Assembly (NCBI GenBank): GCA_914767715.1
Contig: OU612073.1
Location: 434,001-498,000, forward strand
Reading direction: 5' to 3'
DNA: 64,000 nt
Source of the DNA: Membranipora membranacea
Taxonomy: Eukaryota > Bryozoa > Gymnolaemata > Cheilostomatida > Membraniporidae
How positions within the stretch are numbered: the first letter of the stretch is position 1; each line of letters begins with the position of its first letter. A program made the position numbers and the translations under genes. Of the stretch, positions 26,855-52,850 are shown piece after piece. The notes beneath the pieces were generated by a model. It worked only from the letters and a program-made list of their open reading frames with translations, did not search any database and was not told the origin of the DNA.

Positions 26855-28099
26855 CCGTTCGATGAGGTTGAGGGAAGTTATGAAATGCAGAGACAAAGTA
26901 ACCCACAAATAATAATTGAAGCTGCTGAAAACTGCTTCCCCGGACATTGACAGAAATATAATATAATATATAATACAATACAAAAAATATATTACTACAT
27001 AAACTACGGCAATGGTTAAGCATTTGTTTCATGATAATCTCAAGAAGTTTTATAATAAATTAAGTCTTAACAACGTCTCCAACCCCTATTATATGATCAC
27101 ATATTGTGTTACAGAATCAACTATCTAAAAGATTTCCATCACCTGATAATTTCTATTTTCAAAACTCCTGGTAACAGCTATCTTGGTAACTCAGGTTATC
27201 CCCCTGATAACAGTGTACTAGCAGATAAATAAGTCATCACTAACCGAGTTGAAGCTCGGCAGAGGCTTTGGAGGAGTTATCACTCTTCTCCCTTTTCACT
27301 CTTGGTTATTACTAACATGAGCCAACGTAATTATGATCAACCATGTACACTGTTATCATTCCATGGTAGTTTTAAGATAGCAGTAGTACTACTCCGCTCT
27401 TATATAAAAAGTCACCATCAAGTTGTTCATATAGGTTTGACTTTAGACCACATTTGTGTTATCACAAAGTTCCGGGTAGGCCTATAGCACAAAATCCCGG
27501 GTAGCTGTTCTACCTGTTGTTATGAGGTAAAACAGCTTTGGTAAGTGTACATTATTTGTATAGACCATAGAGTTATCCCCCTAACTCTATGGTATAGACT
27601 GATATTAGGTACTGGAAGACTCTCAGCTCTACGTGATTTATCTGTGTAATATATGTTAGCATATCTGCATGGAGTCTTATATTTTATACTGTGCTGCAAA
27701 TCAGCGTTAACTATTCCCCAATACTCTTATACCCTGAAAAATTCATTTTATACCTTTCACTGAAGGACAATTATACAGTATAACATACATCTTGGTACTT
27801 GTCTACTCTTACAAGATGAGAAGATAACTATAAATAACTTGTAAAGTTCTGACCTGTTTTATTTATCTGGACTGATTTTGGTCTGAATATCCTTATATTA
27901 TTGTTATACTTATACACATAGACATCAGACTATCTATATCTACTAATTATAAATGTATCTATCAATGGGACCGCTTCTTTGATAGGAAAAAAAAAGAATG
28001 CTGTTATACCCAGTTGTTAAAATGAAGCAGTGGTAAAATCAGCAGTTGCTGTGGATCAAGTTATGTAAATAGCAATTAAGATGATCACGATGAGTTGAT
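26855..28099. other. Intergenic, no supported gene
   Basis: AT-rich 3' flank of the metalloproteinase gene. A short perfect hairpin, ACCATAGAGTTA with TAACTCTATGGT, lies at 27,564-27,593. No exon recognised. Confidence 0.5.
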
Positions 28100-28330
28100 A
28101 ATAAATAACATACCCGAGAAACAGGCATTTTCTCTCCTGATGGAAGTAAAGGGGAGGGGGGTTGTAGGAAGTAGAAAGATACTGGGCTATCTTGTTGTAT
28201 TTCTGTAGAAGTTTGCCAAAGTGTTTGGAGGTGAATTCAGCTCCATGATCTGACAGTATTTATATTTCTGTGCCCAGATGGGTGGTACATCATGATAAAA
28301 TTGTCTATCCTTTTATTATGGCTGTTGAAC
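28100..28330 (-). mobile_element. Retrotransposon integrase relic
   Basis: On the minus strand the frame reads LSDHGAEFTSKHFGKLLQ, then YLSTSYNPPP and HQERKC. This matches the retroviral-type integrase core around its second Asp (the SDxGxxF segment) and the following helix of gypsy-like elements. A stop immediately precedes it (EI-stop-ILSDHG) and the rest of the enzyme is missing, so it is a dead fragment. It may belong to the same family as the RNase H relic at 14,223. Confidence 0.6.
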
Positions 28331-28339
28331 AAAGACTGG

Positions 28340-28562
28340 CAATCCTGATTGAGTTGTGATCTGTTAGGTCCAGGTCCAACTTCCGTGGTTGGCAGTCATT
28401 CCTTGTTATCTACTGGCAAGCCATTCATCCTAGCCAGGCTCAGATCCTTGCGTAATGGGAGAACGCAGGGAACTGAAAACCTTCCACAGTTACAGCCCCT
28501 GCTCAGCTCTGCAGGATTTACCTGCTGCTTATAAATCTGATTGCCTTTACCTTTACCTTTAC
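28340..28562 (+). repeat. Repeat with CCTTTA tail
   Basis: The segment ends in short tandem CCTTTA units (GCCTTTACCTTTACCTTTAC), a style of 3' tail seen on some non-LTR retrotransposons and SINEs. An open frame of 61 codons runs through it without a recognised domain. Family unknown. Confidence 0.35.
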
Positions 28563-30384
28563 TACAATTTAGATCGGGATTTTAAAACTAGAATCATGTG
28601 AGAACAACCATCATCAACCTCATATTTGGTACGCTTAGCGCTAGCCGTACTACACATGCGAAGGTGGAACTGCTAGCCACTAACATTAAGGTTGGCAATC
28701 AACTATATACCATGCGGCATCCACCACACTTTCCTATAAAACAGAGTAATAAAATATATCTTTCCACACACAACAACTGCATTGAAAAGTGAGAAAGTGA
28801 ATTCGTCATTAAAACAAAATGATTTATCGATTAATGCGCATTCAGATCATTCGGTGGCAGAGTATGTTCTGGTTTCGCTGTGTCATATTTTAAGACTTTG
28901 CTGTAATTAATAATTGACAAAACAACTTGATCAAATCCACTTTTGAGAAATTACCCGGTCGATTTTTATGATTTGTTTTACAATCTTTGTTCTTTATTTC
29001 TCTTTTTTTTGGGGCAACAAAATTGGACAATTATTTTTGTTTTTCTATCATTTGACTTTGTGACTTTTGGATGAAATCATTAATATAGATATATTTTCTT
29101 CACTCATCATTAACTCTAAACTTGGCCGTCTACCTACATTCGAGACAAACCATCACAGGCGAATCTCTGACAAACTGATATGAAATAACGCTCACTTTAT
29201 CGAGACGAGTCAGATAACCGAAGTGCTAACTGTTGACTCATTAAGTTGTTTTTCATGTTGGATACTTAGTAAGGACTCTGATAGGAGATGACTTTATCAG
29301 TCTTACCTGAGAGAATACAATTTTCACAATTTAATCACCGCCGAGTCAACCCTCTATGTTTACAAACAACAATAGCCACCAGGCTGTAGTAATTAGCAAA
29401 CATGTGATCCTGTTTTTTTCGTTGCTGTACACCAGCCAGCCAATAATGTTGATGTCCTTGTGCAAGTGTGATGACAAAATTTTTTGAAATAAATACCAAA
29501 TCAGGGAGAAATCTCCCTGAGTCCCTGGCCAAATAAAGTTGTCCCTGCTCCCTGGTATTATGTTCCTAAAATGTGAAGTTGTCTTCACTATGTCAATTAA
29601 ACAAACTTGAGTGAAAACTATCAAGCAATCCCCATATTGTTTCCTTTTTTCGTAGTGAAACTGCATCCAGCTTCCTGATAACAAACTTGCAGTGAGCTGA
29701 ATTTCGCATTCTCCAAAAGAATTAGCCATTTTAATACAGTATTTATAATATGAACCTTGAATTCTAGCCAATGTGTTGGCTACAAAAGAATACTTCTGCA
29801 GAATCTCATACATAATATACACATAACTGTAGGAAACTGTAGGATCTTCACTAGTAAATGAAGGTGAGCTTCTCTTCATTTTTTTGACCTTATTTATTAT
29901 AACAAACAGGGAAACTTTACTTTAACTTTTCTTTCTTTGGAACTGACCATAGGACTATTGCATTTCCTGACTTTGGGCTTTGCGTGGATGGTTGGTTTAT
30001 TGGGCTGTGAAGGATGGAAGCTCTCTCTGTTTCTTAAACTCTGATCAATTTTTGTCAAAAAAAATCTTTCAACAGCCTCCTACCTAAGGCTAAGTCCTTT
30101 TTTTTCACAATCCTCATACTAGACACAGTAATGGTAGTAGAGAAGAGAAGATTATTCCAAATGCGTGTGGAATAGACTCTTAAGTTGTTTTGTCTTCTCC
30201 ACCAGGGAGTCTCCACTATTAGTAACTGTTTGTCGTACGAAAATTGTGTTCACCTGCAAGTGTGCGGGTTAAAAACTCCGGCCTCTCCAGCTGTGATTTG
30301 AAGGAACCTATTTAGACATTGTCCGTCGATCAGTCCAGTTCAAAACCGTAAATTAATTTGAACAGCTATGTACAGACTAGGGGA
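28563..30384. other. Intergenic, no supported gene
   Basis: Contains a 177-codon minus-strand frame at 29,346-29,879 with no recognisable domain, no repeat partner in the window and no splice support. Otherwise unassigned AT-rich sequence. Confidence 0.4.
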
Positions 30385-30672
30385 TCAACAGTGGACAGGT
30401 TGAAGGTAGTATATTCCAGTTCTTATCAGTTCCAAAGAAGAAGGATCGACGGCACACATGCGTTGAAAGAGCTTCAGAAGTTTGAGATGTTCTCTGAGTC
30501 CAGTGGTGTATGTTTTCTTGTTGTTCCGACTTATTCCGCAGATAGGGCGTGTAGGCCTCCTTTGCACGGCTTCAAGTCTGGTGGCCAGACTATCACTCAC
30601 AAGAGTCCCATGCTGCCGAAGCGTATTTGGGCAGTTAAAAGATATTTTGACAAATGTATCAGAGTATGCCAA
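30385..30672 (-). mobile_element. LINE fragment, C-terminal end
   Basis: The frame has LVSDSLATRLEAVQRRPTRP, then ICGISR and LREHLKLLKLFQRM. This is the pattern after the reverse transcriptase of LINE ORF2 proteins (LExVQRRAxRxIxG ... LxxLxxRR). No reverse transcriptase core adjoins it. The fragment is frameshifted downstream. Confidence 0.6.
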
Positions 30673-32129
30673 ACAGAGAGAGCTTCCATCTTTCTCCTAG
30701 AGACTCTGAAACACAAATATGTAATATTGAATATACAACAGGAGGGTACCGTAGCCTGGACATGCTGCTGGGTGGTTGGGGGTCATGGTAAGTTAATTAA
30801 ACAATAAGTGTGATTGTATAATGACCTGCGAGGTCAGTGCAGGTCTGATTCATAGTTCTAATTATTGTATGTTATAACATTTATTGTAGCCTTGACTGGA
30901 ATGGGACCAACTTGACGGCACGCATATATATCAGGACTAGGCTCCCATCAGACTTAAAACTGGTAATTCAGTTTAGGACTCGGACTTAGTGTGACCAGGG
31001 AGAATTCTCCCTGGTGGTGTGATACAGACTGGTGCTCATACAACCTTCTCCTGGCCTCCACCATTATAATATGAGAAACAAGACTGATTAACAAAGGTAA
31101 GAGTGACATATAAGTACTACTTTGGACTGTTCCCTGTATTGTTAAGTTAATTGTTTGATATGATTCGGCAAACCGGCAATAACCGAAGTTTTGGAGTTTA
31201 GGATAACCGATGTCAGATTCCAATCAATACGATACCGTCAGAAGAACAGGCTCACCTGAAATCATGGTTACCAGTAACTAATTTAGACAAGTAATATCCA
31301 CATCAGGATGAAGCTATCAGTGGAGTGTCAAGTCTTCTCCTCTAACTTCCAGCCTTTAGATGAATCTACAAGTAACATCATCCTCACATCAGTAATATAG
31401 CCGTCTTGGCCAGGAGACCCGTTGTCCACTATACAGCCTACGAAGAATCCATTTACCAATCCCGCCTTCTTGTTTTTGTCTGTTTCTTTGTTGTAGCATT
31501 CAAAATTTTGTGGGTTCATTTAGTTACTTTTTAGTTTGAGAGTTGATAATATGGTAGATTAGATATGGATATGGTAATATTGTAGCTACAAAAGTATGAT
31601 ATAGTTCCTCAGTATGAAATATTAGTATCCTGTTCCATCTGGTCTCCGCTGTTTGTTTGACTGCTTTCTGGCTGAGTCGTGTTATCAAGGAGTAACTCCT
31701 TTGTGTTATTATACCTTGGTACTCAACTACTAGTAAAATGGGAGTTGCCTTCTCTTCATGTAAGACTGGGCAACTCCAGAGCAAAAAATGATGACTGTTT
31801 GAATTTTGCTATTTTTTCAATACAACAACACACACAGACTTTATAGTGTTTTGATAGATATAATATAGTCTTTTTGTAAAGTATTGCAACATACCATGTC
31901 AAGACACAATCGTGATCTGAATAGCACCACCAATAACATTGATTGGTATACTTTCTACTCACAGGAGCCAATTTACATGGTTGAATAATTTATTATTCAG
32001 ATTCAGACATTGTGTAGTTAAGTTATACATACTGATACACTGTCATCTCTTCTACATAGACTCATTCCCTTACTGATTGGTGCTGACACGACAATATGTC
32101 ATCTACCATTAATGTGAAGAATTCAGCAA
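30673..32129. other. Intergenic, no supported gene
   Basis: Apart from one unusual short frame at 31,328-31,519 no coding segment was recognised. The promoter or first exons of the LRR-ROC-COR-caspase gene may be here. Confidence 0.4.
31328..31519 (-). CDS. Unassigned 63-codon frame
   Basis: The frame includes CYNKETDKNKKAGLVNGFFV, DNGSPGQDGYITDVRMML and GWKLEEKT before a stop. The YITDVR...GWxL wording loosely resembles MABP-type repeats (xITDVxV...GWxxL), but only one partial repeat is present. It could be a stranded exon of an unseen gene or a pseudogene piece. No flanking exon found. Confidence 0.2.
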   Translation of the reverse strand: MNPQNFECYNKETDKNKKAGLVNGFFVGCIVDNGSPGQDGYITDVRMMLLVDSSKGWKLEEKT

Positions 32130-32366
32130 GGGGGTCTTTCAATTAGAAATTGCTATGCTTCACTAAAGCAAGTTATCCAGCACATTGCTCAAAATCATCA
32201 CTCTCTCAGTCTTTCAATTAGACAAATTGTTTCCAAGATCGCTCACTCAGAGTGTATATAGTTTCTTCATTGACTGAGTGATTTGAAAGCGAGAGCCTAG
32301 CCAGTGTCTCTCATTCACTGAGTGAGCGATCAGATCGCGATTTTGGCTGTTTCTAATTGAAAGACC
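32130..32366. mobile_element. MITE, GGGGGTCTTTCAATTAGAAA family
   Basis: Starts GGGGGTCTTTCAATTAGAAA and ends TTTCTAATTGAAAGACC. It contains AGAGTGTATATAGTTTC and ACTGAGTGAGCGATC related to the other copies. It lies about 60 bases upstream of the first recognised exon of the LRR-ROC-COR-caspase gene. Confidence 0.75.
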
Positions 32367-32423
32367 AGACAGATCAGACAGATCACATTCTCTTCAAAAA
32401 TAAAAAATAACTTGAATTTTTAG

Positions 32424-35400
32424 GACAGTAAGAATAAGATTCAGAATAAGCATCCCTCAGTCAGCTCAAAGAATCCTTTTTTGCAAGTTGGAGATCCTGC
32501 AGGGAGTATGAGTCTCACACAGTATAGAAAAAGACTGAAGCTAGCCACGGAAGAGAATATGTCAGAAGGTAAGGGTTATATAAGGGGAGTACGATACTTA
32601 ACATAACCAGTTTATAATCGTGATGCATTATGAGACAAACTTTATACTGGTGTAGCACGGTAGTGATTATAGCCAGATCCCCTGTTTCACCGCTCCTTAT
32701 ACGCCACAGAACAAGCACCGAAGATCCAATGAGGTACTATTGCGCAGAGAATCAACAATAAGGTTCTTCTTCTATGGCACCAAATATGAACAAACATTTA
32801 CTAGGACGGCAGCATTGTCGAATAGAGTGTCAGATTCTGACATGGGGTCAGAAATTATTGACCTTCTGAATGTGAAACTCAACCAACTTTCATTTGAGGA
32901 ATTTCCCACATATTATCAAAGAGGGAAGGCAGAAAAAACTGTTTTTATTATTCCTCACCTATACTCACCTATCTCTGCTCTATCCTGTTCGAGTAGCGGG
33001 TGCCTGCTTGAGGCCTAGCTCTATCAAACTTCTCCATCTAATCCTGTCCTGAGCATCCTCTTCATTGAGGGAACATCATTGGAGATCCTTCTTGATCGTA
33101 TCCTTCCATCTATGCTCTGGGCATCCCCGATTTCTCCTTCTATCCACTCACTTCTCATGTACTCTTCTGAGGTCATCATATTCCTCTCTTCTGCACACAT
33201 GCAAACACTGCAACCTTCTTCTTCTCATCAGGTCAAACACACTCATGACATTTGCTTCTTGCCTTATACTTTCGTTGGTTTTGTGCTTCTCAAGACTAAT
33301 TCCAAGACAGTATCGCAACATTCTCATCTCACATACACTGAATCTTTCAGCAAGATAATTTGTCAATGGCCATCTTTCAGATGAAAAAACATTACCTAGG
33401 CAGTAGGGCGGCTGCATTGTCGAAAATGTCTGAAGTCTGAATCTGACTAGCTGCTGAATGTGAAAAGCTCAAAAAAAATTTATTTTAGGAACTTCTTTCA
33501 TATTATCAAAGAGGGAAGGCAAAACATGCCTTGATTAATTCATGTTCACAAACCCACTACTTACATCAAAATTGCTCATTTCAGCAAGTCAATGAGCCAT
33601 CAAAGGCTGTAACCTGTCAACACATGATTTGATTTGTCACTGACATATGTTATATAGATGAGGGGAACATATCTGACCCTGAACAAGTGTTTGGTTATTC
33701 ATGTATGGATGCTGGACGGCATTTCTCATCTTTGATTGGTCTACAAGTCCAGCATCTATTATAGTTGTGCTCTTGTAAAATTTTGCCTGAGTTTTAAGGT
33801 TGTTACTGGGACATCAATCAATGCATAACGTAAAAGCTGCCAGATTCTGACCCAAAGTTATATGCTGATGGCATATCTCCACAAATAACCATGTTAGGCC
33901 TATGTATTTTACCACCGATCCGTAAATTCATATCGATGGTGTTGATGATTCGAACACCTTCAAGGTGATTTGGTGTGTTATAAAATAGCGCAAAAAGTGA
34001 TTTGCATCAACTCTGCTATATCAACGTATGAAGGGCTCATCTGCATATATCATAGCATATAATCAGATGTTATTGTTACATATATTATATAGATAAGTAC
34101 AGGGTATGGTTCAGACATACCGGGGAGGAGGTGATAGAGAAGATACCTTACATCGATCCCGTTATGTACAGAGAGATGACAGTGAGTGATATCGAGTTAT
34201 CTAAGGGAGATAACTCTATCACTCATCTCTGTATCTACTCCCCACAGTGTATCCCTGACTGGATATCCAATGTAGCCCCTGATGTCGTACAGCTGAGACT
34301 GTGGAATATCAATAAGGAGTCACTGAGAGAGGATCGAGTACATTGGGAGAGGTAAGTTATCTTATTGGTACCCTAATTATTTTATACTGTAAATGTGAAC
34401 TCTTTTAAACATATAGTATGACACACCTGACCTAATCTTTCAGTACCTTCAGGATGGTGGTTCAATTGAAGTATATCGAAAATATCGAAAATAAAGTCAA
34501 ATTCTACAATGTAGAATAAGCTTGTCAGGAATGACAGTATCTATGTGTAGTCTTGTTATCTGACACACTTATGATGATATTATGAGGAACAGACAGTGGG
34601 CGTGATATTGTAAAGCAAGTCATCTAGCGGGGCTGTATCCATGGGTTTAGAAAATGTAGGTTCAGGTGGGGTGGGTGCTGTGAGCCTTCCCGCCAGGGGG
34701 CATAGGGGCCTCGCTCAGAAAATTTTGAAAAATCAGAGGCAGTTTTAAGGCATTCCAGCCCTTTTGGAGCAGAAAATTGACAGAATAAAGTATATTGTCC
34801 TAGACAAGATTTAAGAATAATAACAATCGTTTTTGTAAGAAATTTTTCGTCGACATTCTGATTTTATTGACCACCGCAGATAAGGCTTGCGATGAGATGC
34901 CATGAACTAGTCAACATTGACATAAGACAATCTCATGTGGAATGGACGAGATAACTGATGAGTCCCCTCAAAATATCCGCGCCACAGAAATAAGATAAAG
35001 AAAGATAAGAAAAATGTTAATAAAATGCGTTAAAGAGTTAATAAATGCGGAGACACAACTCCAAATTACTAAAATAGTCACTGTCAAATTGGAACTATAA
35101 TGGATGCGCTCACTATTCAATATTTGTTTTAAACTTTAAGTGATAGTTTCACAATGTATGATGGTAATTGGTCGTAATACTGCATATATTTACGATGCTG
35201 TAGATTGAATGCTATCATCTTAAAAATGAATGTCTTATACTTAGGAAGGAATCAGCTGATCTTGTGGTTGGGGACATCCCTCTTTTGTTTACTGTTTACA
35301 AACAGTTTCTACATAGTGATTTGTGGTTGCATAATGAATGCTATAAATCATCCTTCGATGTATGCGGTAGTAGAGCTATTGACAGTGATCAGAGTGCACA

Positions 35401-38400
35401 ATACACTGTTGCATTCAATAACTTTATCATGCATGCTCAGATTTTTTTGTCCTGCAGATATGTGAAAGTTCTTATGATGTGGTATAACTTACTTGCAGGG
35501 CTGGACCCATACCCTACCCAATGGATGTTTTTTCTGTTATGGCTACAAAGTGAGATGTGATTATAGAGTAACCTGTGAATATGGTTATGCTATCAGACTA
35601 TTATGCCCTGAGGGCATTATGGTCTGGTGAAATTACATTTTCCTATGAGACCAGATCTACATATACAATAAAATACCACATAATGTCCCAAACTATCAGA
35701 CCAGATTTACTGTGCAAAATATTTGGAGTTGTTTTTGTTATCATGTGGCATATAAGATGATAAACCGTATATAGAGGAAAATGCACCGTAAACTGACATG
35801 GAAAAATGAGAACTTTTAGAATTATATCAAATAACTAAATAGTTAGGCTTGCTGGAAGTTGAGCAAATAACAATCAAACAAAGCAGTATTAATTTAGTAT
35901 TTCAGGTTGGTAAAATGCGAACAGAACAATATACAAATTTTATTATTACTCCACCCTGATTCCTTCAGAGATAAAGTCCAATATTAAAGGAAACAAAAAG
36001 TACCTGATATATTTTCATGTTTTTATCTCGTACTCAGGATTCCTCACCTATATATACATTGTGTATAATGTGATGTTATCTTGTAGATTATCACAGTTAG
36101 ATCAGCTCAAGGTGCTGGTTATATCGGGTAACCCTGCACTAGGAGCTGTACCAGAGGTAGTGTATAATCTGACACAACTTACTGAGCTGAGACTGGAGAG
36201 GTGTGGGATCACAGAGATAAGTGACAGGTATGTCACAGTATCTTATACAGTCAGATAGAACACTTTTACAACATTAACATTTATCCTAACAGCAATCAAG
36301 ACAATAATAAAGTGTAATATAAAAGCAAATATCTGTTGTTGTTTTTTAAACTGACCATGGGCTGTACTAACTCAGGTACTTGGCTATATTAGTGAGATAT
36401 GATTTTTTGGAGTAACCTGAAAATATGGCTACGATATTAGTCTATAAGATATGTTCTGAGGGCGTTATGGTCTGGTAAAATTACATATCTTTATGCAACC
36501 ACATCTACATTTACCATTAAATACCACATTATGTCCAAAAAATTTTATTGTGCAAATAATATTTGAACTTGTTTTTGTTATCATGTGGCATATAAGATTA
36601 TAAACTGTATGTGGAGGGAACTGCACCATAGACTGACATGGAAAAATGTAAACTTTTATAATTATATCGAGTAATTCAATATTTGGGCTAGCTGGAAGCT
36701 GAGCAAATAACAATCAAACCAAGCAGTATTATTTTAGTATTTCAGGTTGGTTAAAAATAAATGGGCTCCATTTAATGAAAAGCCCAGATTGATGGAAACA
36801 AAAGTACCTGATATTTTCATGTTTTTATCTCATACTCAGGATTCCTCACCTATATATACATTGTGTATGACGTGATGTTATATTGTAGATTATCACAGTT
36901 AGATCGGCTTCAGGTGCTAGATATAAATAATAACCCTGGACTAGGAGCTGTACCAGAGGTAGTGTATAATCTGACACAACTTACTGAGCTGAGAATGCAG
37001 ATGTGTGGGATCACAGAGATAAGTGACAGGTATGTGAGAGTATCTTATACAGTCAGATAGCACACTTATATATCATGATGGTTGTTTGTTCTGCTTATTT
37101 GTGCTGAATCCCAACAGCGATCGAGACAATAACACATGTAATGTTAAACAAAGTATTTTTTTTTGTATAAGCTGACCATGGGCTATACTTACTCAGTTAC
37201 ATGGCTATAATAGTGAGATGTGATTTGAGAGTAACTTGAGAATATGGTTATGATATGAGGCTATTATGCCCTGAGGGCGTTATGGTCCGGTAAAATTACA
37301 TATCTTCATGTAACCAGATCTACATTTACCATAAAATACCACATAATGTCCCAAACTATCAGACCAAATTTACTGTGCAAAATATTTGGAGTTGTTTTTG
37401 TTATCATGCGGCATATAAGATGATAAACCGTATATAGAGGAAAATGCACCGTAGACTGACATGGAAAAATGAGAACTTTTGGAATTATATCAAATACCTA
37501 AATGGTTAGGCTTGCTGGAAGTTGAGCAAATAACAATCAAACCAAGCAGTATTAATTTAGTATTTCAGGTTGGTTAAAAATAAATGGGCTCCATTTAATG
37601 AAAAGCCCAGATTGACGGAAACAAAAGTACCTGATATTTTCATTTTTTTATCTCATACTCGGGATTCCTCACCTATAATTATACATTGTGTATAACGTGA
37701 TGTTATATTGTAGATTATCACAGTTAGAGCAGCTCAAGGTGCTGGTCATATCGGGTAACCGTGCACTAGGAGCTGTACCAGAGGGAGTGTATAATCTGAC
37801 ACAACTTACTGAGCTGGATATGAGGGCATGTGGGATCACAGAGATAAGTGACAGGTATGTGAGAGTATCTTATACAGTCAGATGGTACACTTATATATCA
37901 TCATGGTTGTTTGTTCTGTTTATTAGTGCTGAATCCAAACAGTGATCGAGGCAATAACACATGTAATGTTAAACAAAGTATTTTTTTTGGTATAAGCTGA
38001 CCATGGGCTATACTTACTCAGTTACATGGCTATAATAGTGAGATGTGATTTGAGAGTAACTTGAGAATATGGTTATGATATGAGGCTATTATGCCCTGAG
38101 GGCGTTATGGTCCGGTAAAATTACATATCTTCATGTAACCAGATCTACATTTACCATAAAATACCACATAATGTCCCAAACTATCAGACCAAATTTACTG
38201 TGCAAAATATTTGGAGTTGTTTTTGTTATCATGCGGCATATAAGGTGATAAACCGTATATAGAGGAAAATGCACCGTAGACTGACATGGAAAAATGAGAA
38301 CTTTTGGAATTATATCAAATAACTGAATAGTTATGCTTGCTGGAAGTTGAGCAAATAACAATCAAACCAAGCAGTATTATTTTAGTATTTCAGGTTGGTA

Positions 38401-41400
38401 AAACACGAACAGAACAATATACAAATTTTATTATTACTCCACCCTGATCCCTTCAGAGATAAAGTCCAATATTAAAGGAAACAAAAAGTACCTGATATAT
38501 TTTCATGTTTTTATCTCATACACAGGATTCCTCACATATATATACATTGTGTATGATGTGATGTTATATTGTAGATTATCACAGTTAGATCAGCTCAAGG
38601 TGCTGCTTATATCGGATAACCGATGTTAGGTAACCAAAAGTACCTGATATATTTTCATGTTTTTATCTCATACTAAGGATTCCCTACCTATACACACATT
38701 GTTTATAACGTGATGTTATATTGTAGATTATCACAGTTAGATCAGCTCAAGGTGCTGGACATCAGTGATAACTTTGACCTATATATATGTAATAACCCTG
38801 CACTAGGAGCTGTCCCTGAGGGAGTGTATAATCTGACACAACTTACTGAGCTGAGAATGCGTGACTGTGAGATCGCAGAGATAAGTGACAGGTATGTCAG
38901 AGTATCTTATACAGTCCGATGGTACACTTATATATCATCATGGTTGTTTGTTCTGTTTATTAGTGCTGAATCCAAACAGTGATCGAGGCAATAACACATG
39001 TAATGTTAAACAAAGTATTTTTTTTTGTATAAGCTGACCATGGGCTATACTTACTCAGTTACATGGCTATAATAGTGAGATGTGATTTGAGAGTAACTTG
39101 AGAATATGGTTATGATATGAGGCTATTATGCCCTGAGGGCGTTATGGTCCGGTAAAATTACATATCTTCATGTAACCAGATCTACATTTACCATAAAATA
39201 CCACATAATGTCCCAAACTATCAGACCAAATTTACTGTGCAAAATATTTGGAGTTGTTTTTGTTATCATGCGGCATATAAGGTGATAAACCGTATATAGA
39301 GGAAAATGCACCGTAGACTGACATGGAAAAATGAGAACTTTTGGAATTATATCAAATACCTAGCAGTATTAATTTAGTATTTCAGGTTGGTTAAAAATAA
39401 ATGGGCTCCATTTAATGAAAAGCCCAGATTGACGGAAACAAAAGTACCTGATATTTTCATGTTTTTATCTCATACTCGGGATTCCTCACCTATAATTATA
39501 CATTGTGTATAACGTGATGTTATATTGTAGATTATCACAGTTAGATCAGCTCAAGGTGCTGGATATAAGTTTTAACCGTGCACTAGAAGCTGTACCAGAG
39601 GTAGTGTATAATCTGACACAACTTGCTGAGCTGAGAATGAGTGACTGTTGGATCACAGAGATGAGTGACAGGTATGTGAGAGTATCTTATACAGTCAGAT
39701 GGTACACTTATATATCATCATGGTTGTTTGTTCTGTTTATTAGTGCTGAATCCAAACAGTGATCGAGGCAATAACACATGTAATGTTAAACAAAGTATTT
39801 TTTTTGGTATAAGCTGACCATGGGCTATACTTACTCAGTTACATGGCTACAACAGTGAGACGTGATTTTAGAGTAACCTGAGAATATGGTTATGATATAA
39901 GACTATTATGCCCTGAGGGCGTTATGGTCCGGTAAAATTACATCTCTTCATGTAACCAGATCTGCATTTACCATAAAATACCACATAATGTCCCAAACTA
40001 TCAGACCAAATTTACTGTGCAAAATATTTGGAGTTGTTTTTGTTATCATGCGGCATATAAGATGATAAACCGTATATAGAGGAAAATGCACCGTAGACTG
40101 ACATGGAAAAATGAGAACTTGTGGAATTATATCAAATACCTAAATGGTTAGGCTTGCTGGAAGTTGAGCAAATAACAATCAAACCAAGCAGTATTAATTT
40201 AGTATTTCAGGTTGGTTAAAAATAAATGGGCTCCATTTAATGAAAAGCCCAGATTGACGGAAACAAAAGTACCTGATATTTTCATGTTTTTATCTCATAC
40301 TCAGGATTCCTCACCTATATATACATTGTGTATGACGTGATGTTATATTGTAGATTATCACAGTTAGATCGGCTTCAGGTGCTGGTTATATCGAATAACC
40401 CTACACTAGGAGCTGTACCAGAGGTAGTGTATAATCTGACACAACTTACTGAGCTGAGAATAAAGATGTGTGGGATCACAGAGATAAGTGACAGGTATGT
40501 GAGAGTATCTTATACAGTCAGATAGCACACTTATATATCATGATGGTTGTTTGTTCTGCTTATTTGTGCTGAATCCCAACAGCGATCGAGACAATAACAC
40601 ATGTAATGTTAAACAAAGTATTTTTTTGGTATAAGCTGACCATGGGCTATACTTACTCAGTTACATGGCTATAGTAGTGAGATGTGATTTGAGAGTAACT
40701 TGAGAATATGGTTATGATATGAGGCTATTATGCCCTGAGGGCGTTATGGTCCGGTAAAATTACATATCTTCATGTAACCAGATCTACATTTACCATAAAA
40801 TACCACATAATGTCCCAAACTATCAGACCAAATTTACTGTGCAAAATATTTGGAGTTGTTTTTGTTATCATGCGGCATATAAGATGATAAACCGTATATA
40901 GAGGAAAATGCACCGTAGACTGACATGGAAAAATGAGAACTTTTAAAATTATATCAAATACCTAAATGGTTAGGCTTGCTGGAAGTTGAGCAAATAACAA
41001 TCAAACCAAGCAGTATTAATTTAGTATTTCAGGTTGGTTAAAAATAAATGGGCTCCATTTAATGAAAAGCCCAGATTGACGGAAACAAAAGTACCTGATA
41101 TTTTCATTTTTTTATCTCATACTCGGGATTCCTCACCTATAATTATACATTGTGTATAACGTGATGTTATATTGTAGATTATCACAGTTAGATCGGCTTC
41201 AGGTGCTGGATATAAGTCATAACCGTGCACTGGGAGCTGTACCAGAGGTAGTGTATAATCTGACACAACTTACTGAGCTGGGACTGGCGGGGTGTGGTAT
41301 CACAGAGATAAGTGACAGGTATGTGAGAGTATCTTATACAGTCAGATGGTACACTTATATATCATCATGGTTGTTTGTTCTGTTTATTAGTGCTGAATCC

Positions 41401-44400
41401 AAACAGTGATCGAGGCAATAACACATGTAATGTTAAACAAAGTATTTTTTTTGGTATAAGCTGACCATGGGCTATACTTACTCAGTTACATGGCTATAAT
41501 AGTGAGATGTGATTTGAGAGTAACTTGAGAATATGGTTATGATATGAGGCTATTATGCCCTGAGGGCGTTATGGTCCGGTAAAATTACATATCTTCATGT
41601 AACCAGATCTACATTTACCATAAAATACCACATAATGTCCCAAACTATCAGACCAAATTTACTGTGCAAAATATTTGGAGTTGTTTTTGTTATCATGCGG
41701 CATATAAGGTGATAAACCGTATATAGAGGAAAATGCACCGTAGACTGACATGGAAAAATGAGAACTTTTGGAATTATATCAAATAACTGAATAGTTATGC
41801 TTGCTGGAAGTTGAGCAAATAACAATCAAACCAAGCAGTATTATTTTAGTATTTCAGGTTGGTAAAACACGAACAGAACAATATACAAATTTTATTATTA
41901 CTCCACCCTGATCCCTTCAGAGATAAAGTCCAATATTAAAGGAAACAAAAAGTACCTGATATATTTTCATGTTTTTATCTCATACACAGGATTCCTCACA
42001 TATATATACATTGTGTATGATGTGATGTTATATTGTAGATTATCACAGTTAGATCAGCTCAAGGTGCTGCTTATATCGGATAACCGATGTTAGGTAACAA
42101 AAAGTACCTGATATATTTTCATGTTTTTATCTCATACTAAGGATTCCCTACCTATACACAGATTGTTTATACTGTGATGTTATATTGTAGATTATCACAG
42201 TTAGAGCAGCTCAAGGTGCTGGACATCAGTGATAACGATGACCTAAGAGCTGTACCGGAGGGAGTGTATAACCTGACACAACTTACTGAGCTGAGAATGC
42301 GTGACTGTGGGATCACAGAGATAAGTGACAGGTATGTGAGAGTATCTTATACAGTCCGATGGTACACTTATATATCATCATGGTTGTTTGTTCTGTTTAT
42401 TAGTGCTGAATCCAAACAGTGATCGAGGCAATAACACATGTAATGTTAAACAAAGTATTTTTTTTGGTATAAGCTGACCATGGGCTATACTTACTCAGTT
42501 ACATGGCTATAATAGTGAGATGTGATTTGAGAGTAACTTGAGAATATGGTTATGATATGAGGCTATTATGCCCTGAGGGCGTTATGGTCCGGTAAAATTA
42601 CATATCTTCATGTAACCAGATCTACATTTACCATAAAATACCACATAATGTCCCAAACTATCAGACCAAATTTACTGTGCAAAATATTTGGAGTTGTTTT
42701 TGTTATCATGCGGCATATAAGGTGATAAACCGTATATAGAGGAAAATGCACCGTAGACTGACATGGAAAAATGAGAACTTTTGGAATTATATCAAATACC
42801 TAGCAGTATTAATTTAGTATTTCAGGTTGGTTAAAAATAAATGGGCTCCATTTAATGAAAAGCCCAGATTGACGGAAACAAAAGTACCTGATATTTTCAT
42901 GTTTTTATCTCATACTCGGGATTCCTCACCTATAATTATACATTGTTTATAACGTGATGTTATATTGTAGATTATCACAGTTAGATCAGCTCAAGGTGCT
43001 GGATATCGGTGAAAACGATGACCTAGGAGCTGTACCAGAGGTAGTGTATAATCTGACACAACTTACTAAGCTGAGAATGTTTGACTGTAGGATCACAGAG
43101 ATAAGTGACAGGTATGTGAGAGTATCTTATACAGTCAGATGGTACACTTATATATCATCATGGTTGTTTGTTCTGTTTATTAGTGCTGAATCCAAACAGT
43201 GATCGAGGCAATAACACATGTAATGTTAAACAAAGTATTTTTTTTGGTATAAGCTGACCATGGGCTATACTTACTCAGTTACATGGCTACAATAGTGAGA
43301 TGTGATTTTAGAGTAACCTGAGAATATGGTTATGATAAAAGACTATTATGCCCTGAGGGCATTATGGTCTGGTGAAATTACATTTCCCTATGAGACCAGA
43401 TCTACATATACCATAAAATACCACATAATGTCCCAAACTATCAGACCAAATTTACTGTGCAAAATATTTGGAGTTGTTTTTGTTATCATGCGGCATATAA
43501 GATGATAACCTGTATATAGAGGAAACTGCACCGTAGACTGACATGGAAAAATGAGAACTTTTGGAGTTATATCAAATACCTAAATAGTTAGGCTTGCTGG
43601 AAGTTGAGCAAATAACAATCAAACCAAGCAGTATTAATTCAGCATTTCAGGTTGGTTAAAAATAAATAGGCTCCGCTTAGTAAAAAGCCCAGATTGATGG
43701 AAACAATAGTACCTGATATATTTTCATGTTTTTATCTCATACTCAGTATTCCTCACCTATATATACATTGTGTATGACGTGATGTTATATTGTAGATTAT
43801 CACAGTTAGATCAGCTCAAGGTGCTGGACATCGGTGCTAACGGTGACCTAGGAGCTGTACCAGAGGTAGTGTATAATCTGACACAACTTACTGAGCTGGA
43901 TATGAGGGCATGTGGGATCACAGAGATAAGTGACAGGTATGTGAGAGTATCTTATACAGTCAGATAGTACATTTATATATCATTATGATTCTTGATTTTG
44001 TATTAGCTTAGCCTGAGCTGTATTTTCTCCTATACCCGGCTGTGAATAATATGGAAATATACCCTGATGGCAAGTTTCACCGAATCACATTTTTTGCAAA
44101 CCAGATTTAAATCTACCCTTTGACACCCATCTATTAAAAAAATCAACAAAATATTTGTATGCGAAAAATTATTAGGAGTTGTCTCATATTTATCACAGAT
44201 ACTTCATAAACGATCACAGATACTTCACTCTTTATTCAATATTAATATTAGAGAATATAGTTGTCACATCATGAACCAGTTATGTCATGAATAGCTTATT
44301 CGCTTTCGGCCCATCTTTATCAATAGCTTTACCAACAGGTGCTTAGTTGGCTATTTATTTTGTTAGTTCTATTTCAGTATATCAATTATTGTTAGTATTG

Positions 44401-47400
44401 TAATCATAATCATCGCTCAGGCCAAGCAATAAAAATCTCGAAGCCCAACCTTTCCATTCTTGATAAAATACCTCTTTTTTTTTATTGGAATTTTATCATA
44501 ACATGAACGTGAATTAAATGCCATCACGAATAATTTCAGGCAGCTCTGTCATGTGATTTATGGTTATGCGGTTGATGTAGCCTCCAGTTTTTATCTTCCA
44601 GTCAGACAGTCATTACCACTATGCCTTGACTTCATTACAGCCCTCCGTACAGTTGTTCTCTTTGTTGTGTCCTGCCACAATTTCAGATCAATCTCTCAGT
44701 TTTTTTATGTATCGTTAAGTTGCATCCTTATATCTGGGCCTAGGTCTAACCTGACTTTCCCTCTCATGGCTTTGGGAGTACAGTTTATGTCCAGGAAGCC
44801 GAACATTGTCTATCAAGTTTACGTCGGAACGATCTCAGCTTTCTCTCTATGAGAATGAAATAAGCTGTACCAGACAGGAAGGCATTGGAGCACAATCCAC
44901 GGTCTCAATATACCTTATCTTATCACATCATCCGGTATTCGTCACGTCTCTCAGTTCTCTCATCATGTAGGCATTTTGCTTCTTAACTTGTGTCCTCTAT
45001 ATCGTCTAGCTTTCATCTCCATGTATATATACGTATATATGATATATACATCGCCTTATACTCAACGCTGTGTATCTTTGGCTCTGGTGGCAACAACGCA
45101 CTGTCATCAGTAAAAAACATCTCTCTTACTAGAATAGGTATCTGGCGGGGGGGGGGGGGGGGGGGCGAGGTATTGTCTTGTAGCAATGAGACACTCTAAA
45201 GAGATCTGCCTAATGCATTGTTCTGTATGCGAATCCCTTCTTGTGTATCCTTAAATGCAAATTTTAGTTCAGTGTAAGCTGGTTAATTTCGGACTTCATA
45301 ATTGGGAACTCCCGTTGATTCAAACAATGAAAATTGGTCCCTCCAGCCAGATGTCAGTGCATTCTATTGTCACTTAATTCAGACTCGGCTTAATTAGGCC
45401 GTATTTTTGTGGTCTCCAGAGGTTTGAATAAAGTGAACTGCACTGCATAGCTGTCAGATATATTCACAATAGTGTGGATGCGAGCAATCCTTATAGCTCA
45501 ACACCACAGCAAAATCTTAGGAGGGAACTCTTGAGGGTACCTAAGTTCTACAATAATGGTAAAAGTTAATGTATATTTGTAATGTGACAATTTGAGCACT
45601 AAATTTAATTTAACCAATGCACAATACAGGGTATGGATATAAGTGATCATATTAAATTATTTTGAGATTTGGGATTTACTACTATTGTAGCGATTTATAC
45701 ACAGAATTAAAACTGGCTTACACATACTACACTACACTAATAAATAAATTAAGTTTGTGATACATTTGGCTTTAATTATTTTACACATTTTTTGGGAAAG
45801 TTGAGTCTCTCTACTATCGTCTGCCTGGATAGATATATATGTATATAATATGATCTATTTGTCTGTCCTTGTTTGGCGTCTGCTCATTGTCAGCCCAAAT
45901 GTCGTATTAATCTAGGAATGTCACTGAATTTAGGTAAAAATCTAGGTCTCACCCTTTATTTTCAGAATGAAATATTATCACAGGTTATTGCTTGAATAGA
46001 TATTATAGTGTTTATATAAATATAGCTGTGGTTTTCATGCACTCTTTTGGGATATTGAATTTGATTATGATACCTCAATGTCTTTAGGTATTCCTCACGT
46101 ATAGAAGGGTTAATTCATATCCCATTGGCATCCTTTATTGTTTGGTGGGTGTTGCACATGTGGCAATGATGATATCAATATTGTGAACACCAAGAACATA
46201 AATCAGTAATCACTTGAGTAAAAATATTAGATAAACCAGGAATACCATACAAACAAATATAGTTTTGAAATGTGTAAATCTACCCTGAATAAAAATAACC
46301 ATGTGTGGAAAGGGAAAAGCAGGTCATCTACCCGTGATAATCTACATTCTTCTCTGCAGATGCAGGTTTATAGTTTGGATGCAGCTTTGAATGTGTTCAC
46401 TTTACTAAGTTTTATGTATTGTAGATTGTCAGATCTCACTGAGCTTGAGGTACTAGATATAGGAGTGAATGAGTTCATCACACTCCCTACAGCAATTCTC
46501 AAATTAACGAAACTGAAGACACTGGACCTTGAGTATAACAAAAGTCTGCAGTCATTAGATTCCCGTCTGTTACTTCTACCTGCTCTGGAGGAGCTGAAAT
46601 GCGAACGTTGTGAAGCTCTGATATCTCCACCTTATGCAGTCTGTGAGCAGGGTCTGCAGCCTGTAAAACAGTATTACACAGATCTCAAACAAACAGGAGG
46701 AATAAAACTTCCTATAGTCTCTGCTGCAGTGATAGGAAACAGGATGGCAGGTAAAACTAGTCTGATAAACAGTCTGAAAGCCCGAGAACGGAAACTCACG
46801 TATCGTAACAAGGAGGGAGAGTATGATGACACAACAGAGGTGTTCAAAATAGAAGAGATTGAAATGGGAGATTCACAGTTAAAGATCTTTGACTTTGGAG
46901 GTGACAGAATATATCACTTGACGTATGTTATTACAATCCGTAGTAATTACATTCCAATAGTCGTTGTGAATATGGAAGAGTTTGATCAGCTATCTACGTC
47001 TAAGGGTTGTAAGGAAGCAGTGAGAATTTTAGCACTAGACTACATATCTCACCTTTATACATCAAGCCCTCGGCTTGACTCTCCCTTCGTTGTTCTCACA
47101 CACAAAGACAAACTCAGCCCTGCAAAGTTTGAAAGCAGAGCAACTGAGCTCTCTGATTCTCTCGAAAAGCTCTGTTCAGAAATGATGGAGGAGGAAAGGC
47201 TCTTCTCAAAAGGAAAATCTGACTTTTGCAAAATTCTTATCTTCTCAAAGGACAAGCAAATCATCTCCCCTCGAGATATATTCACACTGGGCCAGGCCGA
47301 TGTAAACAATGAGGTTATCCTTCGCATTCTCAGTCAGCTTCAGATGAGAGCAGAACCATTCTTCACTACCATCCCCAAACTTTGGGAGCTTCTTCTTCTA

Positions 47401-50400
47401 TTCTTTGACAGTATGCCTCATTTGCCATTCATTCTTCTTGTTGAGGTGAAACAGAGATTCCCTGGTGATGCCGGCTTCACAGTGCTACGCTACATGCATA
47501 ACATTGGGAGAATTCTGTGGTTTGAACATGATGAGATCTTGAGAGGATTTGTTTTCCATAAGCTGACAGAGGTGACGGACATGATCGCTTTACTGTTTCA
47601 TCACAGGTCAGCTGACCTATGGAAGTCTCATATCAATGCCCAGCCAAACTTCATCCTCTTTGGAAATGAAATGATTCAAAAGAGCAAGTATCAAAAGCTT
47701 GTAGAAGAGTTTATGCAGACAGGAGTTATTGACGAAGCTGTGCTGGTCAGGGTGATCAGTAGTGGAAGTTTTCAACACGAACCGGCCATAAAACTACTAA
47801 AGGCATTCAAACTACTGTGTGGACCTATTCATACATCACCGCGGAACACATACATTGTTCCATACTTCTCTAAAGGCTCAATGGATCTGATCCCAATAGA
47901 CATCAAGCTGCTTCAGCTACGTGTAGACATTTCATTTAAAGGTCTGTCCCCTCCCTCTTATATATACAGCCTACTCACCTGCCAGTTTCTAGCTCCATTC
48001 ACAGACCCCGGTCTTCGGCTTAGAACGGCTAAGAACGGAGCCATGGTACATCATGGTAACACAGTGAGTCGAGTAGTGCACAGCAGTAGAGACCGTAAGG
48101 TTAGTGTACTCGTAGATACCCCAGTAGCAGATATAGATTCCTCCTGGAACCAACTGATTGACCACACAGACTCTATCATCAATCACCTGCTCTCTATCTG
48201 GGTCGCAGCTCGACCTATATGTGAGTTCTACTGTGCTCACTGCCTGTATCTACACAAGTCTGAGCCTGAGATAGAAGTAGATCCAGACTGGTATTCTCCT
48301 CTGAATCACAATGAGAGGGATAAGCCTCCATCTCACCTGCTGAGAAGACTGCCTTCTAATGCTGACCCTGTGAGCTGCTGTAACGACCAAACTAATGGTG
48401 GACAACTCAGAGTACCAAGACCTCTGAGATTTCCATGTAAGTACGAGGATCAAACACAAACTTTGTTACCAATACAAAATTGTTCTTTCTGATATTTCAT
48501 GATGAAAAAAGGTAATTATCAGCAAAATGGAATTTTTGTTCCCTTATTTGAATAAATCCCTCTGATTTATGGTTTACACATTTTTTCGATTGCAGATATA
48601 AAAAACCTTACTTGGATTTGCCATTTGTTGTGACTTCCAATTGATTCAATCATTTGGTTAGAGAAATATGACAGTGTAATTTTTTCTCTGATAGGTTTAT
48701 CGCTGACAGAAGCAGATAAAGATGAAGTCAGCACCTATATATCCACTCTACAGCCACAGGACACACCAGCTCATCTGGGTCTGTACAGTTATATCAGGAT
48801 TAGGTTTAGGGATTAGTTTATACCTTCACTTCTGTACATAACAGCATATATTTGTCATATATTATAATTTCACTTCATTGGGCTTGAGCAGATTATAGGT
48901 CAACTTAACTTATTATAACTTGTATTAATTAGGATAAATTTATTTAATTGTCTCCCCACAGCTGTACAACCAGAGGAGACACACAGAGCAGTAGCAGCTG
49001 GTGGAGAGAATGTCAGAAATGATATACAGAATAATGAGGAAGCTGTAGATGAGATCATAGAGCTGATGACATCACAACCTCCAATAATCGACCTACCGCT
49101 GGTCATCAGTGACTCACAGGAAACTAACTCACAGGAAACGGTAAGTTGTCCTTCTATAACTACAGAATTCAGGTGAATTATATAAGTTTATACAGCTTAT
49201 ATTCATGATGATCCATTGCTTGATTACAGTTAGTTGTAAGTAAAACTGAACTCGTCTCTTTGTCTGCATGGACAAATATTTTATTCTAGATGATCATTTT
49301 GATTAAACGCCATATATATATATATTATACAAAATAAAGGTTAAATATACGTGTTCTGAATATTATCAATATCCCCTTCCCTATTTTAGATGAGATATAA
49401 GATGACTAAGACAAGAGGTCGAGCTCTCATATTATCTAATAAGTATGAGTACACTAATCGACGAGGTCAACAAGTCTGGAGAGCGGGTGCTGACATTGAT
49501 CATGAGAATATGAAGAATATGCTGGAGAACTTTGGGTTTGTTGTGAATGGAGAGTATAAAAACTACACTTCAGAGGTAACCCATTCAATATAATCCATTA
49601 CTATAATGTGAACAAGAAATGCACCAGATTGAAAGGTTGAGCTTTCATGTATTTCACGGAACCCGGCAATATTATTGATGAAGGCTGTCACATTCCCCCA
49701 ATTTTCTTATCAAATAAACATGTTTGTTTATAAAGGATATGGTGACCGAGATTCACAGAGAGACCCAGCTGGTAGACCAGACAGGCCAGTCGGTATACAA
49801 AGATCTAGGAATGTTTGTACTGGTTATAACTAGTCATGGCGCTGAAGGAACTGTTGTCGGGTCTGATCACAAACACATCAAACTTACTGATATCTATCAG
49901 TTATTATCTGCTCAAAACTTCCCGGCTATGAAAGGAAAACCAAAACTCCTAATAATACAAGCCTGTGCCGGAGGTTAGTACGTCTGCTACAATTAAAGAA
50001 TTATGACAAGCAGAAACAACAGGTACTGTTTGTATCTGACATCAATGTAACATAACCAACAATGCAAATCCTTGAGACAGAAGTTAGAATCTATCATAAT
50101 TATTATTATTATTATTATCATATAATTATTGCCGACATGTTATGAGCTATCAGACGTTTTGTACCAACAATGTCTCATCAATATTTCGTGTCATATCCTG
50201 TGATGAATTTCTATTTGCAGTTAACAGAGAGATGATGACAGACTCGATAAATGACACAGCTGTTGATCAGCAGTATAACAGACAGGAGGTGACATCACAG
50301 ACAGCAGATTATGGACATGTAGACTCAGAGCCCAGTGATATCTCTGTGGCTAATCTGTTTGTCATGCAAGCAAGCTTTGATAGTAAGTGACATCTGAGCC

Positions 50401-51624: not shown

Positions 51625-52745
51625 GTTTTTTTCTTAACTCAGCACATTAAACTATCAGGAGAGTAAAAGTGAGACCAACTGTGTGATACTTATTCTTATC
51701 TCTCACATTTTATAAGTGACAATGTTACAATCACTTAGTTTATCAGTACCATTTGACGAACATTGAATTATCTACATAATTTTTAGGATGTTGATATTTT
51801 CTTTATTTAATAACAGAATGTTTACAGAAGGTACACTTGACATGCATCATCAGTATGTCATGTTATTTCTCAGAATACTGTATTTATTATCCATCAAGAT
51901 TAAGTTCTACAAAATAGTTTTATCTTTTTTTATGATTTAGTATGTAATGTGTGTCCACCATGTACATTATATTGATTTTATCAGAAGTTATTTTCCCACT
52001 GCAAGAGAGAGGACAACTACAGTTCTTGAATTTTGCTGAATACATCAGTTTGCTGAGAAGCTATCAGACATATATTTAGAGGTCCAAAACAGTCCTATCA
52101 AGATTAATACAAGTTAAAGCTGTTATATCATCATATCTGACTGAAATATTACATGTCTTTTCTACTAATGATGAGCAGAATTATCAGTTATGTGATTTTT
52201 GATGTACAATTATTTCACCAAAGATAACTTTGATATATTGCTAGTTATAATGTCTACTCAATTTATTTTATTGATGACTCAATATCATGACACACATCTC
52301 CTGAAACCTCCATCAAATATTTTTCTTTGATATCTTTCAAATGTATTCAATAGCCTTCAACAACATGTCAGGTCTTTAAACAATTTGAAGGCATCCGGAC
52401 AACGGACATTCCTTTGTTTCAGTAATCAGTTGAACGGTCTATGGCTTCCATTTTTCTTCTTTTGTTTATTTTAATATTTTTTTGCTTCCTCCAGCACAAT
52501 TGGAAGAACATCACTAAAGTGATTATAATTGTTGTCGATAAATGTTTTAAAAATAATGACCATGATAAGTAATAAAAGTAGGTCATTTTCAATCACAACA
52601 ATGCCTCAGTAATGTATAAGCTGCTTCAGTGCAGGATGAGCTATTGACCGAAGGTCTATGACATTAGATAATTGCTGGTAACACTTACAGACTTTTGGAA
52701 AAAATACTTGGCACACCAGTGAAGTAAATCATAGTTCCTAGCTGA
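51625..52745. other. 3' flank, nothing recognised
   Basis: AT-rich sequence between the caspase stop codon and a SINE fragment. No exons, RNA genes or repeat families recognised. Confidence 0.5.
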
Positions 52746-52850
52746 AGTCTACCGACTACTGGGCTCAATTGACGTCCCAGGTGTGCACCGACCCGCCTGC
52801 CAACTGAGAGCAAAATGGCGCCAAATATGGCGGCCGGGCCCTTAAGGCAA
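52746..52850 (+). mobile_element. SINE body fragment
   Basis: Shares CCGACTACTGGG, GCACCGACCCGCCTGCCAAC-like sequence, TGAGAGCAA and GGCGCC with the SINE copies at 11,171 and 23,342. The tRNA-like head is missing. Confidence 0.55.

Follow-up and report, generated by a model that had tools for sequence, protein, structure and literature searches.

Organization of the locus

This study concerns gene W, an LRR-ROC gene in which ten tandem exons encoding leucine-rich repeats (LRRs), here called cassettes, lie between a probable N-terminal exon and an exon encoding a Roc GTPase. Gene W occupies the + strand of the window, that is, the whole 64,000-nucleotide stretch of DNA that was analyzed (C9:434001-498000, in an assembly of 339 Mb and 18 contigs). 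All results come from this one reference genome, within which paralogues were compared, and coordinates given without a contig name are those of the window. The gene model is as follows:

about 34077..34352, + strand: probable N-terminal exon (ends approximate), with tblastn matches in sister-cluster loci
36087..36227, + strand: cassette exon 1, 141 bp, two LRRs
36889..37029, + strand: cassette exon 2
37714..37854, + strand: cassette exon 3
38575..38622, + strand: dead exon fragment (48 nt from the start of a cassette, followed by a stop) within the intron that follows cassette 3
38727..38891, + strand: cassette exon 4, 165 bp, with a 24-bp in-frame insertion encoding FDLYICNN
39531..39671, + strand: cassette exon 5
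40354..40494, + strand: cassette exon 6
41178..41318, + strand: cassette exon 7
42039..42086, + strand: dead exon fragment in the intron after cassette 7
42191..42331, + strand: cassette exon 8
42971..43111, + strand: cassette exon 9
43796..43936, + strand: cassette exon 10, the last of gene W
about 46425..48492, + strand: exon for the last LRRs, the Roc GTPase, and a C-terminal region with a weak COR-A match

The ten cassettes that a first-pass annotation had placed at 36087-43936 are all present there, each open and bordered by AG and GT (10/10). Each 141-bp cassette encodes a 47-residue module of two LRRs; cassette 4 is the exception in length, and its insertion sits after the first LRR strand. 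The cassette introns are in phase 2 as conventionally numbered, interrupting an Arg codon between its second and third bases, and the intron after cassette 10 groups with the last-cassette introns of five paralogous genes described below. The probable N-terminal exon is 100% identical in gene A, a paralogue in the same cluster, and 99.6% identical in one further paralogue, with partial or weaker matches in the others; in four loci of a sister cluster, tblastn found open frames of 48-52% identity over 92-101 residues. No Pfam family matched this exon at an E value of 5 or below.

The start of the Roc exon was inferred from the split Arg codon, and its end is the stop of the open frame. Its Roc domain scored 28.2 bits against PF08477 (cut-off, 27), and the Roc part of the exon matched the PDB entries 3dpu (E 4.6e-5) and 4wnr (E 0.0032), both of which we take to be Roco structures. 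A sub-threshold match to COR-A (PF16095, 16 bits against a cut-off of 35.3) covers residues 355-396 of 690. The LRRs of gene W lie N-terminal to Roc, in the ROCO domain order, and the Roc exon is constrained: the ratio of the proportions of nonsynonymous and synonymous differences (pN/pS) was 0.35-0.61 in ten comparisons among five genes, and 0.37-0.61 for gene W against four paralogues, with one gene partial in both sets. Gene W is a member of an expanded LRR-ROC (ROCO-type) gene family.

The cassette pool and its paralogues

A profile search of a joined 264-kb stretch identified 36 full cassettes in six tandem genes, forming a cluster of about 224 kb:

gene A (C9:416-421 kb): 7 cassettes
gene W (the window gene): 10 cassettes
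genes C, D, E, and F: 5, 4, 6, and 4 cassettes

Thirty-four of the 36 cassettes are distinct, and all are open, lie on the same strand, and have AG and GT at their ends. All share one phase, each cassette opening with A and closing with AG, parts of split codons. The pool also holds three copies of a truncated 48-nt exon fragment. A sister cluster of four 10-kb loci (C9 2.17-2.50 Mb) carries 16 cassettes of the same design separated by introns of about 250 bp. Genome-wide, 150 of the 923 candidates from a search with the cassettes were scored, yielding 139 matches, and a Roc exon search gave 61 matches scored out of 355 candidates, some with stops or representing pieces of one gene. The Roc matches point to a large expansion of LRR-Roc genes, at C9 1.29-2.5 Mb, C11 0.64-1.5 Mb, C1 36 Mb, C3, and C5.

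In lampreys, variable lymphocyte receptors (VLRs) are built from LRR modules, assembled somatically from flanking cassettes into an incomplete germline gene. The likeness to VLRs drawn in the first-pass annotation extends to diversity built from variable LRR modules out of a pool and stops at the gene structure, since here the cassettes are ordinary in-frame exons between the N-terminal and Roc exons. Somatic assembly of this kind would account for equal-length LRR modules with variable ligand faces in 4-10 copies per gene. Nothing observed in this genome suggests it, however, and we regard it as extremely improbable: 36/36 cassettes have an open frame and splice sites, all on one strand, and the cassettes of each gene are followed by a Roc exon (broken-looking in 2/6 genes).

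Other sequences in the window include segmental duplications of up to 12.8 kb, many 90-99% identical, that are shared with the rest of the tandem cluster (1-9000, 20715-35519, and 46243-64000), and a tandem repeat of a 447-bp unit in 3.2 copies with 86% matches (18985-20400). An open 456-amino-acid frame on the - strand (53978-55348) matches RVT_1 and, by its motif, apparently belongs to a non-LTR retroelement; a stretch on the + strand (14112-14600) looks, by eye only, like a retroelement RNase H remnant.

Exons diverge where introns do not

By-eye counts in the first-pass annotation had cassettes 2 and 6, and likewise 3 and 7, differing more in their exons than in their introns. Recounting bore this out. 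Cassettes 2 and 6 differ at 9/141 exon bases (8 replacement, 1 synonymous) and at 4/683 intron bases plus one gap, and cassettes 3 and 7 differ at 21/141 exon and 4/872 intron bases. Fisher tests gave p values of 3.9e-5 and 2.1e-15, respectively, with sites taken as independent, which copied stretches are not. Across the pool, intron distance was below 1% in 23 of the 630 cassette pairs, and the exon was the more diverged part in 21 of these; D1/D2 and A1/W1 have identical exons. The mean exon difference over the 23 pairs, which are not independent of one another, was 12.8 of 141 bases.

The earlier statement that the usual exon-intron order is reversed is correct, with the qualification that the reversal belongs to pairs whose introns are young. 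When all 630 pairs are taken together, the exon is the more distant part in 415 (means, 0.129 for exons and 0.094 for introns), because 276 pairs have introns more than 10% apart. The reversal itself has a precedent in duplicated genes under gene conversion. Exon and intron distances were uncorrelated over all pairs (Mantel rho 0.045, p 0.24), and by another measure they were weakly correlated (0.20-0.22) in 26 units with introns of the middle class.

The last cassettes of genes A, C, D, E, and F show the contrast locally. The adjoining 188 bp upstream are identical in 5/5. Diversity is 8-14% in every third of the exon and drops to 0-0.9% over the 141 bp that follow it; farther out, it rises to as much as 7.7% upstream and, still in the same part of the intron, 3.8% in the next 94 bp downstream. 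With gene W added, near-upstream diversity rises to as much as 4.3%. Near-identical surroundings with a divergent functional exon among paralogues form the divergence peak described for concerted evolution. The sister cluster contains two pairs with identical introns (0/256 and 0/243 differences) whose exons differ at 9/138 and 7/141, respectively; over its 120 pairs, the mean distances are equal (exon 0.094, intron 0.092).

Some 15 kb of genes A and W are 98% identical. Over their five colinear cassettes the exons differ at 23/705 bases and the introns at 14/3534, and the 5' flank (99.1% identical) differs at 113/12403 (Fisher 5e-10 and 9e-7); the 5' halves of the two genes are a recent copy in common. 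Gene A (C9:414001-434000, compared with window positions 23655-44722) looks chimeric, with a W-like 5' part and a distant Roc exon. Such a long, nearly identical stretch could raise the suspicion of an assembly or haplotype artifact. We give this scarcely any weight, since collapse or error is not expected to produce identical introns together with different exons, the pattern recurs in six genes and a separate cluster, and the Roc exons of A and W differ at a pS of 0.447.

Variable residues and codon-model evidence for positive selection

In LRR strands of the form LxLxxN, the x positions are exposed on the concave face. Concave-face placement was read here from the motifs LxLxxN and LxLxxC. 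All nine residues named earlier as ligand facing (11, 13, 14, 16, 17, 35, 37, 38, and 40) are variable across the 36 cassettes, with 13 amino acids each at residues 14 and 37. Variability is not confined to them: residues 8, 24, 33, and 36 vary as well, and residue 8 (K in 18, Q in 14, E in 3, and R in 1) does so more than residue 40.

Codon models indicate diversifying selection, as had been suggested. These site models were our own implementation on a FastTree topology, using one tree despite recombining exons, so that their p values are unreliable. For the 36 cassettes, M2a was favored over M1a (twice the log-likelihood difference [2dlnL], 115), with a nonsynonymous-to-synonymous rate ratio (omega) of 6.5 at 11% of codons, namely 13, 14, 16, 37, and 38. 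When each exon half was analyzed separately, codons 14 and 16 and codons 33, 35, 37, and 38 were recovered, with codon 40 at 0.85. Residues 11 and 17 had no support for positive selection in either run on this main set. The 16 sister-cluster cassettes gave a 2dlnL of 51.6 and an omega of 7.3, with codons 9, 11, 14, 16, 24, 26, 33, 35, 37, and 38, 6/10 of which are among the nine.

Silent sites within the variable codons behave much like those of the framework. In codon pairs of the same family, a cleaner basis for counting than the NG86 proportions given below, four-fold third positions of the nine variable codons differ in 84/876 comparisons. Framework four-fold sites have a similar mean, about 0.10 (average of 17 sites); codon 37 (12/31) and codon 11 (5/15) are higher. 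Diversity at the first and second positions of codons 14, 16, 37, and 38 is 0.48-0.76.

An internal control is provided by the dead exon fragments in the introns after A4, W3, and W7. These retain the opening 48 nt of a cassette, in which codons 11, 13, and 14 lie. No base differs among the three fragments. At the same 48 positions, the intact exons of these units show 11, 0, and 11 differences, and two neighboring live-exon triplets show 4, 3, and 3 and 5, 0, and 5. Although the sample is small, this constancy favors selection acting through the encoded protein over a mutator aimed at the sequence itself.

A mutator directed at the exons, whether AID/APOBEC-like or resembling a diversity-generating retroelement, would explain why very high diversity is confined to a few codons. 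It could also explain the NNT bias (third base T in 33/36 at codon 16 and 27/36 at codon 14), as adenine mutagenesis of AAT would leave. The dead fragments, however, carry codons 11-14 and do not vary, four-fold sites in the variable codons stay near the framework level apart from codons 11 and 37, and exon singletons arose at 12/44 A, 7/24 C, 10/40 G, and 5/33 T sites, without clear base preference. The window's open reverse transcriptase frame matches RVT_1 only, and no search for a template repeat was made. Targeted hypermutation is disfavored by the dead-fragment, four-fold, and spectrum evidence and seems most unlikely, and the corresponding proposal of the first-pass annotation, a mechanism aiming mutation at the cassettes, is not supported.

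Probable exchange between cassettes

Variation does appear to be imported into cassettes, the other possibility raised earlier. The 21-nt 3' variable block is identical in W3/W10, in W8/E5/E6, in A6/E1/F1, and in A1/W1/E2, and the introns that follow these cassettes are 4.8-18.7% apart, with the exception of A1/W1 (0.8%). In pairs with introns less than 1% apart, the framework synonymous distance was 0.061-0.066 against an intron distance of 0.003-0.007, as expected if older exon sequence had been copied in, and synonymous framework differences travel together with variable-codon differences in these pairs.

Linkage was computed in the 26 middle-class units, a class with an intron diversity of about 5%. 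Mean intron-intron r2 fell from 0.45 to 0.21 over distances of up to 90 bp, and exon-exon r2 fell from 0.225 to 0.063 over the same range. Exon-intron r2 was 0.034-0.061, around the shuffle level of 0.040. Within 150 bp, it was 0.035 on the downstream side, where shuffling gave 0.041, and 0.054 on the upstream side, where shuffling gave 0.039 and 11% of shuffles reached the observed value; between intron sites it was 0.274. A first analysis of 30 units, with a downstream-intron r2 of 0.87, was replaced by this one; the high value is taken to reflect mostly the last-cassette intron, a separate class. The near absence of exon-intron linkage and the recurrence of blocks beside unlike introns are evidence that exons and introns have had separate histories.

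In favor of point mutation under very strong positive selection, with no exchange between cassettes, 38 nucleotides each occur in a single cassette (variable codons, 12 replacement and 2 synonymous; framework, 17 replacement and 7 synonymous). Against this stand the identical 21-nt blocks beside unlike introns, the joint travel of framework synonymous and variable-codon differences, and four-gamete violations in 57-80% of exon site pairs, depending on distance class (introns, 30-80%). Mutation without exchange is disfavored, by the shared blocks and four-gamete counts in particular, and we consider it very unlikely.

Over all 36 units, with two exceptions allowed, the longest near-invariant run covers 27 bp at the exon end and 5' splice site, followed by runs of 25 bp between the variable blocks and 23 bp at the exon start. 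Since these three runs bracket both variable blocks, homology-guided copying could swap each block.

Homology-guided or exon-targeted exchange

Germline exchange of cassette sequence combined with diversifying selection is the best explanation of these data, with a probability that we put at roughly 0.72. The cassettes of the clustered genes would form one germline pool. Ectopic recombination or gene conversion would copy short stretches from one cassette to another, with the identity blocks on either side of each variable block as the probable guide, and duplication would affect single units as well as blocks of them. Selection for new combinations would maintain differences at the variable codons against repeated homogenization of the remaining unit, and the exposed residues of the two beta strands (LxLxxN and LxLxxC) would be the presumed ligand face. 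This physical process is one that we infer from the patterns above.

The main rival places the focus in the exchange itself, through a recombination hot spot in the cassette exon or RNA- or cDNA-templated copying, with selection sorting the products. Exon-directed germline exchange would then swap LRR cassettes between tandem ROCO genes with their introns left in place, giving a heritable combinatorial recognition repertoire. Exon-intron linkage near the shuffle level on both sides, beside much higher intron-intron linkage, is what such targeting would produce. Set against it are the dead fragments, which show no import over 48 nt (though they lack the downstream identity blocks), and the consideration that over the 36-unit pool homology alone would concentrate exchange at the exon. 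Exon-wide homogenization by cDNA further predicts framework synonymous diversity below that of the mid-intron, and it is not lower here.

Simulations bear on the choice between the two. After a 3-run trial and a 48-run coarse grid, 373 simulations with random parameters were run, 188 with uniform and 185 with exon-concentrated exchange. They were stylized, with 150-200 genomes and no homology dependence, and the observed values compared with them used gapless intron columns, with the two intron halves averaged for distance. Exon-concentrated runs made up 7/7, 16/20, and 28/40 of the runs nearest the data. Among runs of comparable diversity, a ratio of intron-intron to exon-intron r2 of at least 6 was reached in 0/50 uniform and 5/40 exon-concentrated runs; the observed ratio was 7.9 with the intron half adjoining the exon and 5.7 with the far half, whose columns were placed artificially beside the exon for this comparison. 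A mean exon difference at young introns of at least 13 was reached in 1/50 uniform and 0/40 exon-concentrated runs, and the observed value by that measure was 14-17. In these simulations, exon-concentrated exchange fits better than uniform exchange, though not decisively. Because the simulated model was stylized and had no homology dependence, homology-guided conversion with selection was kept as the best explanation, and exon-targeted exchange is judged unlikely, as is the heritable repertoire by exon-directed swapping that would follow from it.

Several results weigh against conversion with selection as proposed here. Each of the two simulated models missed at least one of the observed values. 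When the 26 middle-class units are taken by themselves, near-invariant runs in the introns (22-24 bp) are as long as those of the exon, so that homology alone does not explain the higher exchange of exons in this class, a point in favor of exon targeting. Simple counting (NG86) at the nine variable codons gave pN of 0.21-0.48 and pS of 0.21-0.37, a ratio of about 1.0-1.5, so that the expectation of a ratio above 1 at concave positions receives an uneven answer, with an omega of 6.5 at 11% of codons in the site model and this lower ratio by counting; multi-hit codons and hitch-hiking inflate pS at variable codons. Support for selection leans on a model, run in our own code on one tree. Part of the pool may belong to dead genes, as Roc exons look broken in 2/6: that of gene D is in two pieces with stops, and the match in gene E is limited to residues 1-396 of 730 (C9 575382-577482 and 609379-610566), although the cassettes of both genes are open. 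Finally, since a fold prediction of the Roc exon from three sequences was unusable (predicted local distance difference test score, 33) and was set aside, the COR assignment rests on the sub-threshold Pfam match.

Relation to known systems and significance

Several known systems share parts of this pattern. Exon shuffling in brown-algal LRR-ROCO genes is the closest precedent of the gene W system; these genes were reportedly treated by Zambounis et al. in 2012. In the more recent account, their tandem LRR exons are shuffled and alternatively spliced, four concave residues are under positive selection, and the algae surveyed have 9-47 ROCO genes each (Teng et al. 2024, PMC11378527). As described there, the likeness covers LRR-ROC(-COR) genes with tandem, equal-length LRR exons of one phase, exon shuffling, positive selection at concave-face residues (here by motif and site models), and candidacy as immune receptors. 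By the same account, the brown-algal exon is 72 bp with one LRR of 23 residues, against 141 bp with two LRRs here; most genes are dispersed, against tandem clusters here; and the 9-47 ROCO genes compare with the 61 Roc matches scored here out of 355 candidates, a number that includes pieces of genes. In brown algae the LRR exons have been shown to be alternatively spliced, whereas the present genes are known from genome sequence. Relative to that account, exon-intron unlinkage and the dead-exon control are added here.

Other precedents share single elements. In the Podospora HNWD family (het-d, het-e), WD-repeat units are exchanged within and between members, copy number varies, four interaction-surface codons are under diversifying selection, and an allorecognition function is established (PMC1805685). 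The exchanged units, diversified surface codons, and variable copy number recur in gene W; by that description the Podospora proteins pair WD40 with NACHT, whereas here LRR exons accompany ROC and the intron contrast is available. In human opsin exon 5, introns are homogenized by conversion while exon divergence is kept by selection (PMC3924837), the same selected divergence peak, but as reported for two genes and two key residues rather than a 36-cassette pool with continuing diversification. In zebrafish NLR-B30.2 genes, a positively selected recognition exon spreads across groups by conversion while another exon remains group specific (PMC4852459); a selected recognition exon is likewise exchanged across genes here, although the zebrafish account concerns a single B30.2 exon and not repeated LRR cassettes. 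Tetrahymena has tandem arrays of equal-length, phase-2 LRR exons of 90 bp, for which ectopic recombination has been proposed (PMC6564038); the design is shared, and selected binding residues and a ROC domain distinguish the present genes from the arrays as described. In sea urchin SpTransformer genes, intron type is reported to be tied to exon pattern, in contrast to the gene W pool (PMC8634487). Searches of the open-licence literature in PMC showed no report of LRR cassettes of this kind other than those from brown algae and Tetrahymena, a result that counts only weakly toward their absence elsewhere.

What is new here is the combination of two-LRR cassettes, tandem genes, and evidence of separate exon and intron histories. 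All cassettes of a gene would be spliced into one solenoid, whose exposed residues presumably bind ligands. The selecting agents may be non-self (microbes or allorecognition), and the genes may have an immune or allorecognition role.

In sum, the cassette system appears to generate recognition diversity by an inherited route similar to that reported in brown algae. The gene W cluster is small enough to be counted in full and shows how such diversity could arise in a germline that does not rearrange its genes somatically, with the introns serving as an internal clock and the dead exon fragments as an internal control. The unlinkage of exons and introns makes it testable whether ordinary gene conversion plus selection is enough or whether exchange itself is focused on the exon. 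The exon-shuffling theme of brown-algal LRR-ROCO genes would thereby be extended to a different exon design and, if the genome is that of an animal, to a distant lineage.

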